Both the position numbers and the translations under genes were made by a program. Shown here piece after piece: positions 1,809 through 4,492 of a DNA stretch of 5,259 bases. Below the pieces are notes generated by a model. The model was not told the DNA's origin. It ran no database searches and saw only the letters and a program-made list of their open reading frames with translations. The stretch is from Candidatus Sumerlaeota bacterium (GTDB lineage Bacteria; CG03; SLGR01). How positions within the stretch are numbered: position 1 is the first letter of the stretch; every line of letters starts with the position of its first letter. The stretch lies in NCBI GenBank assembly GCA_007136585.1, contig SLGR01000146.1:1-5259 (forward strand), in the 5' to 3' direction.

Positions 1809-3569
1809 ATGAACGATAAAAAATCCTCAAAAGATCAGGAGATGAACCTTTTCAGGGAAATATTTCCATACAGCAGTGTTCCGTATGTTAAGTTTGATAA
1901 CGAGGTTGTCCCTATGAATATTCCGGAGGATTTCTGGATTACTGATACCACCTTCAGGGACGGCCAGCAGGCCAGAGCCCCGTACAGCGTCAAACAGATA
2001 GTGGATCTTTTCACTTTTCTTCACGAGATGGGAGGCCCCAACGGGGTCATAAGGACAAGCGAGTTCTTTTTATACAGTAATAAGGATAAAGATGCTGTCC
2101 GGAGGTGTCAGGAGAAAGGGTTTGAATATCCCCGGATCACGGGATGGATAAGAGCGCATAAGAAGGATTTCAAGCTTGTAAAGAAAATGGAGCTTGACGA
2201 GACCGGTATACTTACCTCCGCCTCCGATTACCATATATACCTTAAACTTGGTTCCGATCGCAGGACGGTTATGGATAAGTACCTTGAGGTAGTTGACGCG
2301 GCTCTTGAGGAAGGGATAATACCCCGGTGCCACCTGGAAGATATTACCAGGGCTGATTTCAATGGTTTTGTTATTCCTTTTGTCCGCAAGCTTATGGAGC
2401 GGTCCAGGCAGAGCGGAATACCGGTAAAAATCAGGGCCTGCGATACGCTTGGGTACGGGGTCCCGCACCCCCAGGCGGTTCTCCCCCGGTCGGTTCCCAA
2501 GATAATAGATACCCTGGTAAGAGAGTGCGGTGTCCCGTCTGAACATCTGGAGTGGCACGGTCACAACGATTTCCACAAGGTTTTAGTATGCGGTTTTTAC
2601 GCCTGGCTTTATGGTGCCAGCGCGGTTAACGGGACGCTCCTGGGTTTTGGGGAGCGTACGGGAAACCCTCCCATAGAAGGGCTTCTTATAGATTATATGA
2701 GCCTTAAGAGATCCGGGAATGAAGCTGATCCCCGGGTTATAAGGAAGGTGGCCGATTACTACCGCAGGGAGCTCGGGGACCATATACCCTCGTCTTTCCC
2801 GTTCGTGGGGAGTGAGTTCAATACCACCAGGGCCGGGATCCACGCTGACGGACTTATAAAGAACGAGGAGATATATAACATATTTGATACGGCCGGGATA
2901 CTTGACCGGCCTATGAACGTCGCCATAACCGATAAATCCGGCACCGCCGGAATAGCTCTCTGGCTGAATAACTTCCTTAACCTTGAAGGCGACCGCAAGG
3001 TTAATAAGAACGATCCCAGGATTCACCGGGTCTACGAGATGGTTATGGAAGAGTATAACAGGGGTAGGACCACGGCTATGGCGAACGAGGAGATGGAACA
3101 TCTTGTAAAACAGTCTTTCCCCAGGTTCTTTGAATCGGAGTTTGAGCAGCTCAAGAAGAAGGCCGGTAAACTTGCCGTTCACGTGGTTGAGGAACTTGCC
3201 GAGTCGGAGGATATAAGGAGTATGAAACCCGAGGTGCAGGAAAAGGAGATGGATAAGGCCCGGAGAAAATACGAGTTTATCCAGTTTCTTTATGTTGTGG
3301 ACAGACACGGTTATAAGATAACCCGGAATATTATTGATCCGGAGTACTCCGGGGATTTCGAGAAGGGCGAGATAGGTATAATGTACACGGACAGGGCGTG
3401 GTTCAGCCGTCCCATAGAGACCGGGGTCTCGTTTGTTTCCAACTTCTATATATCGCGTATTACTAACCGTCTCTGCATAACGGTCTCGGCTCCGGTCCGC
3501 AACAGGAAGGACGAGATAGTCGGTGTTGTCGGGATAGATATGAGTTACGAAGACCTGGTAAGGGTATGA
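1809..3569 (+). CDS. Re-type citrate synthase (DRE-TIM metallolyase family) with C-terminal Cache/PDC-like sensor domain
   Basis: The 586-residue protein probably condenses oxaloacetate and acetyl-CoA to citrate with Re-face stereochemistry in the cytoplasm. Re-citrate synthases are unrelated to the common Si enzyme and belong with isopropylmalate and homocitrate synthases. The catalytic TIM barrel spans about residues 35-370. It shows DTTFRDGQQ at 46-54 (catalytic R50, metal-binding D51), the conserved E85, the metal-binding HGHND at 250-254, GERTGN at 281-286 and HADGL at 345-349. The Q53-Q54 variant of the DRE motif and phrases such as ITGWIRAHKKD, HLEDITRADFNGFV and EWHGHNDFHKVLV recall the Clostridium kluyveri type rather than LeuA. 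The family's C-terminal accessory helices run to about 450. Residues 452-586 are an extra domain resembling Cache/PDC sensors, with YVVDRHG at 494-500, DRAWF at 528-532 and GVVGIDM at 572-578. No LeuA dimer domain and no membrane helix are seen. ATG 1809 has a good ribosome binding site. The malate dehydrogenase and aconitase genes directly downstream support citrate rather than homocitrate or isopropylmalate as product. Automated annotation may call it 2-isopropylmalate or homocitrate synthase. Confidence 0.87.
   Translation: MNDKKSSKDQEMNLFREIFPYSSVPYVKFDNEVVPMNIPEDFWITDTTFRDGQQARAPYSVKQIVDLFTFLHEMGGPNGVIRTSEFFLYSNKDKDAVRRCQEKGFEYPRITGWIRAHKKDFKLVKKMELDETGILTSASDYHIYLKLGSDRRTVMDKYLEVVDAALEEGIIPRCHLEDITRADFNGFVIPFVRKLMERSRQSGIPVKIRACDTLGYGVPHPQAVLPRSVPKIIDTLVRECGVPSEHLEWHGHNDFHKVLVCGFYAWLYGASAVNGTLLGFGERTGNPPIEGLLIDYMSLKRSGNEADPRVIRKVADYYRRELGDHIPSSFPFVGSEFNTTRAGIHADGLIKNEEIYNIFDTAGILDRPMNVAITDKSGTAGIALWLNNFLNLEGDRKVNKNDPRIHRVYEMVMEEYNRGRTTAMANEEMEHLVKQSFPRFFESEFEQLKKKAGKLAVHVVEELAESEDIRSMKPEVQEKEMDKARRKYEFIQFLYVVDRHGYKITRNIIDPEYSGDFEKGEIGIMYTDRAWFSRPIETGVSFVSNFYISRITNRLCITVSAPVRNRKDEIVGVVGIDMSYEDLVRV
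3162..3566 (+). other. Cache/PDC-like sensor domain fused to the citrate synthase (residues ~452-586)
   Basis: This is a domain within the preceding gene. A long charged helix (about 452-488) leads into a first strand FIQFLYVVDRHG (489-500). Then come an insert, the DRAWFSRP segment (528-535), a strand with NFYISR (545-550), ITVSAPVRN (555-563) and the closing GVVGIDMSYEDLV (572-584). This order is that of a Cache/PDC ligand-binding module. Residues R529, W531, F532, Y547 and D577 fall at spacings like those I recall for the amino-acid-binding subclass of dCache domains. There is no signal peptide or transmembrane segment anywhere in the protein, so the domain should be cytosolic. The fold is recognised from pattern only. 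Ligand and regulatory role are inference. Confidence 0.75.
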
Positions 3570-4492
3570 ATAAGATTGGGGTTATAGGGGCCGGCGCAGT
3601 CGGAAGCCAGCTGGCTTTCCTGCTGTCCTTATCCGGGGTCTGTGATGAAGTGGCACTGGTTGATATCAAGGAGGGTCTGGCCGAGGGCAAGGCCCTTGAT
3701 ATGAGTCAGGCGGCTCCTGTCACGGGATCGAGGTGCCGGGTTTCAGGTTCGGATGATTTCAGCCTTATAGAGGGTTCGGATATAACTGTTATGACCGCGG
3801 GGGCGGCAAGAAGACCGGGTATGAGCAGGGAAGATCTTCTCAAGACAAACCTTGGAGTGGTTAGGGAGGTATCGGCCCTGGTAAAGAAATATGCTCCCGG
3901 AACTCTTCTTATAATGGTAACCAACCCCCTTGATATAATGGCCTTTGCGGCTTACGTTTTTACCGGGTTTGAGCCTTCCCGTGTTATGGGAATGTCGGGA
4001 GTCCTGGATACATCCAGGTACAGGAGTTTTCTTGCGGCTGAAGCAGGTGTCGCCCCTCCCGATACCAGGGCAATGATACTGGGCCCGCACGGGGATTCAA
4101 TGGTTATCCTTCCGGAAGCCGATCTGGGAGGGGAGAGCGCCGATACTTTAATTGAAACGGAAGTACTGGAGGGTGTGAAAACAAGAGCCCGGTCGGGGGG
4201 AAAGGAGATAGTTGAGCTTCTCAGGGATTCAAGCGCTTTCTTTGCCCCTGCAGCTTCAGCGGCCTGTATGGTAAAGGCCATAGCCGGGGATTCGGGCGAG
4301 GTTCTTCCCTGTTCGGTATACGCCGCGGGGGTTCTGGATCTTCCAGAGGTTTTTATCGGGTTGCCTGCAAGGCTTGGAAGAGAAGGGATCCGCGAGGTCG
4401 TGACGCCTGATCTGGCCCCGGCTGAGCTTAAGGCGCTGAAAGATTCCGCAGCGGATCTGGAGAAAAAAATTACAAGTCTGGAGCTGAAATGA
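3566..4492 (+). CDS. mdh: Malate dehydrogenase, LDH-like (type 3) family
   Basis: The 308-residue cytoplasmic enzyme interconverts malate and oxaloacetate with NAD(H). The N-terminal Rossmann fold has GAGAVG at 8-13 and D33 at the end of the second strand, which favours NAD over NADP. The specificity loop AARRPGMSR (80-88) has arginine at the position that reads malate/oxaloacetate, where lactate dehydrogenases have glutamine. N120 in VTNPLD, D148 and R151 in GVLDTSR and the catalytic H175 in GPHGD complete the active site. Length is normal. ATG 3566 overlaps the TGA of the citrate synthase as ATGA, indicating translational coupling; an AAGGG lies too close to be an ideal ribosome binding site. 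After H175 the sequence MVILPEADLGGESADTL departs from the usual MVPLPRY-type segment. Catalytic residues are all kept, so the enzyme is probably active. Its place between citrate synthase and aconitase suggests it supplies oxaloacetate to the synthase. Confidence 0.93.
   Translation: MNKIGVIGAGAVGSQLAFLLSLSGVCDEVALVDIKEGLAEGKALDMSQAAPVTGSRCRVSGSDDFSLIEGSDITVMTAGAARRPGMSREDLLKTNLGVVREVSALVKKYAPGTLLIMVTNPLDIMAFAAYVFTGFEPSRVMGMSGVLDTSRYRSFLAAEAGVAPPDTRAMILGPHGDSMVILPEADLGGESADTLIETEVLEGVKTRARSGGKEIVELLRDSSAFFAPAASAACMVKAIAGDSGEVLPCSVYAAGVLDLPEVFIGLPARLGREGIREVVTPDLAPAELKALKDSAADLEKKITSLELK
4480..4491 (+). promoter_or_regulatory. Shine-Dalgarno and ATGA start for the aconitase-family gene
   Basis: GGAG at 4480-4483 sits five bases before ATG 4489, inside the end of the malate dehydrogenase gene. 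The start codon overlaps the upstream TGA (4490-4492), so ribosomes finishing the dehydrogenase can restart here directly. This supports 4489 as the start. Confidence 0.75.

Follow-up and report, generated by a model that had tools for sequence, protein, structure and literature searches.

Cache domains usually sit outside the cell, as parts of chemotaxis receptors, and are regarded as the counterpart of PAS domains on the extracellular side. What might such a domain do at the C-terminus of a soluble enzyme, and is that enzyme a citrate synthase? Both questions are raised by a 586-residue protein encoded in a window of 5,259 nucleotides, which is one whole contig (SLGR01000146.1) of the draft genome of a Candidatus Sumerlaeota bacterium (1.88 Mb, 88% complete). 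The closest named relatives of this genome are Elusimicrobiota MAGs. The initial annotation, made from the letters alone, had proposed a Cache-like sensor behind the DRE-TIM barrel of a Re-citrate synthase, possibly serving allosteric control.

Genomic context

All genes of the window lie on the forward strand. The first to appear, an amine-oxidase-like protein of which only the end is included, is followed by a GT4 glycosyltransferase (639–1769), the gene for the 586-residue protein (1809–3569 including the stop codon; defined by its open reading frame and translation, an HMGL-like match and the fold search), a malate dehydrogenase (3566–4492; Ldh_1_N/Ldh_1_C) and an aconitase/homoaconitase-family large subunit that is cut by the contig end (4489–5259), the last two assigned by family profiles. 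The starts of the malate dehydrogenase (3566) and aconitase (4489) genes each overlap the stop codon of the preceding gene, which suggests translational coupling. The order amine-oxidase-like protein, GT4, Re-citrate synthase, malate dehydrogenase, aconitase is common to much of the Elusimicrobiota order (the window and loci L004–L012), and its pairing of cell-envelope-type genes with TCA genes is unexplained. The operon goes on with isocitrate dehydrogenase and fumarase in L012, and with aconitase subunits and isocitrate dehydrogenase in L035. The aconitase at the same operon position in L012 (7664–9604) is of a different, single-chain type (646 residues, 35% identity to that of the window), which suggests a replacement in place. 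Glutamate synthase and glutamate-dehydrogenase-family genes are present in the genome from which the window comes.

The enzyme core

An HMGL-like domain (PF00682) was matched by residues 44–295 with 95 bits in a Pfam scan of the protein. Based on the homologue alignment, AlphaFold models and a fold search, the catalytic DRE-TIM barrel and its helical subdomain extend over residues ∼44–443 (1938–3137, forward strand). The AlphaFold model of the whole protein has a pLDDT of 90 and a pTM of 0.74, and its closest fold is homocitrate synthase (PDB 6ktq, Z 33.9, residues 39–441). The catalytic motifs of the HMGL-like barrel are intact: F49-R50-D51-G52-Q53 is almost invariant among the 79 aligned homologues, and H250, H252, N253 and D254 (the HGHND motif), G281-E282-R283, N286 and H345 are invariant in all 79.

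Judged by homology and context, the protein is probably a Re-citrate synthase. This is the most likely identity because the gene belongs to an operon type with malate dehydrogenase, aconitase and isocitrate dehydrogenase, no Si-citrate synthase was found, and close homologues occur in anammox bacteria. The Si-citrate synthase family (PF00285) was not detected in the 88% complete draft genome, while the same search found it in 13 of 14 control genomes. The anammox homologues (Kuenenia/Brocadia), which are Cache-less, are 58–60% identical to the 586-residue protein. A Kuenenia gene, 55.1% identical to the Re-citrate synthase of Clostridium kluyveri, was assigned this role from that identity together with labelling data that support an oxidative branch (PMC8027424); we infer that it is the counterpart of our anammox locus L089. 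The enzymes of C. kluyveri and Syntrophus aciditrophicus probably belong to the same family as the fusion protein.

The protein could instead be another DRE-TIM acyltransferase (a homocitrate, citramalate or isopropylmalate synthase) that carries a Cache domain. The NCBIfam equivalogs of these three families do match, all far under their cutoffs, and the connection to characterized Re-citrate synthases runs through the anammox homologues rather than through direct alignment. However, the operon, the lack of a detected PF00285 member and the inclusion of the Kuenenia/Brocadia proteins in the family all point away from this assignment, as does the presence of separate HMGL paralogues of 532 and 542 residues on another contig of the same genome. 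We therefore regard a different acyltransferase activity as very improbable.

Structure of the C-terminal module

The C-terminal region forms a Cache/PDC module of residues 444–586 (3138–3566, forward strand), as indicated by Pfam, a profile search against the PDB, AlphaFold models and a fold search. The module starts slightly earlier than in the initial annotation, which began the domain at position 3162: its long first helix begins at residue ∼444 (nucleotide 3138), and Cache-less homologues end there. MCP-like_PDC_1 (PF22673) matches residues 526–583 with 41.7 bits against a cutoff of 27, whereas dCache_1 (PF02743) matches residues 457–583 significantly (E 5e-9) with 36–41 bits, below its cutoff of 45. 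As the latter match covers only positions 30–155 of the 240 in the profile, the protein carries one module and not a tandem pair. All 71 aligned relatives match both families, with best E-values of 2.7e-21 and 7.6e-17. A profile built from the 71 C-terminal domains retrieved Tlp3 (1.6e-11), KinD (3.9e-10) and PctA (1.1e-7) from the PDB, as well as PctC and PctB.

The PDB search with the full-length model returned barrel matches only, so the domain was modelled separately (pLDDT 91.4, pTM 0.87). The model contains the long N-terminal helix (444–464) and PAS-like sheet of the Cache fold, with further helices at 467–470, 474–487 and 530–538 and strands at 491–498, 555–564 and 570–579. Its fold matches include WalK (Z 16.1), KinD (16.0), CitA (15.3), Tlp3 (14.5) and PctC (13.9), along with DctB, CtaA and PctA; in total, ∼50 Cache/PDC entries align with VIA-align Z-scores of 13–16 over 118–137 residues. 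The profile searches and structure prediction that the initial annotation had recommended thus bear out a Cache-like C-terminal domain. By its profile and fold matches, the module is assigned to the dCache_1 membrane-distal type of PctA and KinD. Matches of the helical region to septin CDC3 in a single-sequence search vanished with a profile search and are attributed to chance.

Kyte-Doolittle means over 19-residue windows do not exceed 1.13, with a peak of 0.28 in the N-terminal region. These low values along the whole protein indicate neither a signal peptide nor a membrane helix, in agreement with the earlier reading, and the protein is predicted to be soluble.

A putative ligand-binding pocket

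A motif for amino-acid binding, [YFWL]....[RK].W[YFW](13-17)[YFW](27-34)D, has been published for dCache_1AA domains, and docking places the ligand carboxyl at its Arg/Trp and first aromatic, and the amino group at its Tyr/Asp (PMC11237719). In PctA, R126 hydrogen-bonds the ligand carboxyl (PMC10104139). The profile alignment brings PctA R126, W128, Y129, Y144 and D173 into register with R529, W531, F532, Y547 and D577. The segment R529-A-W531-F532 (3393–3404, forward strand), aligned to R126-P-W128-Y129, is strongly conserved among the 71 relatives (R in 66 and K in 2; W in 71; F in 70). Y547 (3447–3449, forward strand) is Tyr in 61 and Phe in 8, and D577 (3537–3539, forward strand), at the position of the PctA contact to the ligand amino group, is Asp in all 71. 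The pattern R-x-W-F-(14)-Y-(29)-D occurs with near-constant spacing in 57 of 71 relatives, and 66 of 71, including the 586-residue protein, contain the published motif minus its first aromatic. The full motif is found in 11 of 71, nearly all from Desulfovibrionaceae or their neighbours. The 586-residue protein departs from it at the first residue only, having I524 where PctA has Y121; an F, Y or L fills position 526 in 32 of the 34 representatives left after thinning.

Among the relatives with the complete motif (L046, L050–L052, L055, L058, L062, L066, L073, L076 and L083), the Desulfovibrionaceae branch has the segment GYDFSQREWF, which closely resembles GYDPRSRPWY in PctA. From its sequence, this branch would provide the best candidates for testing ligand binding. 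The other dCache domains encoded in the genome of the window (contigs C139 and C54) are without the amino-acid motif. We also weighed a purine-type pocket but discarded it: McpH has Gly at the equivalent of D577, and T558 and S560 stand here at the Phe/Asp positions for purine.

Conservation is concentrated at the pocket. The five pre-specified pocket columns have a mean top-residue frequency of 0.95, against 0.56 for the domain, a value that none of 200,000 random five-column draws reached. In 34 representatives thinned at 60% identity, W and D are present in all 34, Y/F in 34 and R/K in 31. These numbers bear on whether the Cache-derived module is only a dimerization or stability domain that binds no ligand. 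Cache and PAS domains can also act as dimerization domains (PMC8694187), Cache-less enzymes exist, and the domain evolves faster than the core (mean identity of the 71 relatives to the 586-residue protein of 39% versus 58.5%). However, few columns of the domain are kept as well as those of the pocket, even as the remainder drifts, and a scaffold would have no need to keep R, Y and D at pocket positions across about ten phyla, which makes a purely structural role rather unlikely. To our knowledge, residues of the W128/Y129 type are partly structural in all dCache_1 domains, which weighs against the ligand-binding reading.

The aligned residues make a carboxylate a likely ligand of the module. 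A related possibility is that this carboxylate is not an amino acid, being instead pyruvate, 2-oxoglutarate, citrate or another di- or tricarboxylate. R529 aligns with R131 of KinD, which was crystallized with pyruvate; R131 is the residue changed in PDB 4jgq/4jgr, and it is the one letter that distinguishes the wild-type from the R131A KinD chain. The structural matches include CitA (citrate) and DctB (succinate), and the 586-residue protein lacks the amino-acid motif's first aromatic. On the other hand, D577 occupies the amino-group position of amino-acid receptors and is not matched by Asp in the KinD alignment, an Asp inside the pocket would be unfavourable for di- and tricarboxylates, and most of the close structural matches listed bind amino acids. 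We consider a non-amino-acid carboxylate somewhat unlikely and an alpha-amino acid, on the strength of the motif residues, the more probable ligand. I524 in place of the motif aromatic, in a column that is variable in the family, argues against amino-acid binding, which is thus not established. Glutamate, suggested by pathway logic, is a guess.

Distribution and history of the fusion

Homologues were collected with a seven-member alignment from the Elusimicrobiota order as the query. Among the best 80 loci in named genomes, a list biased toward full-length matches, 70 carry the full fusion. The groups concerned are Elusimicrobiota, Nitrospirota, Thermodesulfobacteriota and other deltaproteobacteria, Omnitrophota, Auribacterota, Margulisbacteria, Spirochaetota, Lentisphaerota and Fibrobacterota; Syntrophaceae relatives (L047) also have the Cache domain. 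In an unbiased draw from the deltaproteobacterial phylum of L021, the enzyme is present in 97 of 198 genomes, and 94 of these proteins extend to the end of the Cache domain, while two stop at residues 442–443 and one is cut short. The initial annotation had left open how widespread the fusion is; it extends to about ten further phyla beside the deltaproteobacterial one and is not peculiar to the source genome.

The extension is not a standard part of every Re-citrate synthase, being absent from Bacillota and anammox members. An unbiased draw from the Bacillota phylum of L090 yielded the enzyme in 26 of 249 genomes and the Cache domain in none of the 26, so that, unlike the fusion enzyme, the surveyed Bacillota members are without it. 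Cache-less proteins stop within a few to ∼20 residues of position 440, and no Cache remnant was found downstream of Cache-less genes in the 28 loci inspected. Stop codons were flagged in the matched or extended stretch of six Bacillota homologues (L094, L099, L100, L101, L109 and L112), at the C-terminal edge or in read-through past the end. A search of viral contigs revealed no relative.

On an unrooted tree of the core, the Cache label needs six changes, at least three of which are forced by starred branches. An attempt to use the distant HMGL paralogues of the same genome (contig C133) as an outgroup gave branches of length 10, and the tree was left unrooted. Since it has no root, gain and loss are not separable: the sequences are compatible with either a fusion of old origin that was lost repeatedly or several gains.

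Comparison with known systems

The membrane-distal dCache_1 modules of PctA, PctB, PctC and Tlp3 share the fold of the C-terminal domain, with R-x-W-[FY]...Y...D in register. These receptors are extracytoplasmic and bimodular and feed a chemotaxis signalling domain, whereas the fusion enzyme has one cytoplasmic module behind an enzyme and has not kept the first aromatic of the motif. KinD (PDB 4jgo; 4jgp with pyruvate), among the best matches by both profile and structure, shares with the fusion enzyme an S-x-I-T segment after the third strand; it differs in being extracytoplasmic, with two modules, a histidine kinase output and a residue other than Asp aligned to D577.

In architecture, the closest precedent found is YkuI (PDB 2bas, 2w27), in which a cytosolic EAL TIM barrel is likewise followed by a C-terminal PDC-like domain; the Pfam family YkuI_C is matched by 25 of the 71 relatives. 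However, YkuI is a c-di-GMP protein and not a metabolic enzyme, the function of its barrel is unrelated, and the match is weaker. 2-Isopropylmalate synthase with its LeuA_dimer domain, and CimA, combine the same kind of barrel with an end-product-sensing C-terminal domain, but these regulatory domains bind leucine or isoleucine and have a fold unrelated to Cache. LeuA_dimer (PF08502) gave no match to the 586-residue protein at E-values up to 1 in the Pfam scan, and the Cache domain sits in its place. The parallel with LeuA drawn in the initial annotation therefore holds for the architecture; the domain itself is unrelated, and the protein is not of the LeuA type.

Functional implications

Among related DRE-TIM enzymes, amino-acid end products exert feedback control, leucine on LeuA and lysine on homocitrate synthase (cf. 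the titles of PDB 3fig and 3mi3). The fusion suggests that a metabolite, perhaps an amino acid, directly tunes the activity of the enzyme, and we infer that the predicted Cache sensor would exert allosteric control. We find it reasonably probable that this cytoplasmic protein acts as a Re-citrate synthase and that its single C-terminal Cache module serves as an allosteric domain that binds a small carboxylate, an alpha-amino acid being the likeliest.

In this working model of end-product control, a small carboxylate would bind in the Cache pocket, with its carboxyl held by R529/W531 and its amino group by Y547/D577; the first candidate would be glutamate or some other product made from 2-oxoglutarate along this branch. 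The resulting change may travel through the long helix 444–464, which links the module directly to the enzyme's C-terminal helical subdomain, and would adjust the formation of citrate, the step that commits carbon to the oxidative branch leading to 2-oxoglutarate and glutamate. The fold and boundary of the module, the solubility, the conservation, the spread and the gene neighbourhood are shown by the analysis, whereas the specificity of the enzyme, the class of ligand, the signal route and the direction in which activity would change are predicted. Two further considerations count against the allosteric reading: many organisms have the same enzyme without a Cache domain, and in receptors the Cache signal exits by the C-terminal helix, whereas in the fusion enzyme it must exit by the N-terminal helix.

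No description of a Cache domain in a citrate synthase was found in the open-licence literature searched, and the literature covered describes no regulation of Re-citrate synthase. The fusion is thus widespread but apparently undescribed, although its architecture is probably visible in public databases, since Pfam already detects both domains. The constituent parts are already known; what is new is the use made of the Cache domain. The combination of HMGL-like and Cache domains offers an annotation handle for an enzyme that is routinely misnamed isopropylmalate or homocitrate synthase, and the pocket motif makes the question of the ligand directly testable.

If allosteric control through this module is true, it would explain how Re-citrate synthase is controlled, by a fold for which no role in the regulation of metabolic enzymes is known. 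An extracellular-type sensor would have been reused inside the cell for direct allosteric control, in an arrangement conserved across about ten phyla. More tentatively, and with some doubt, a large and ancient group of anaerobes may control the entry of carbon into its glutamate branch by a Cache domain inside the cell that is either a descendant or a sister of the universal extracellular amino-acid sensor; glutamate, or an amino acid related to it, would then exert feedback on Re-citrate synthase.
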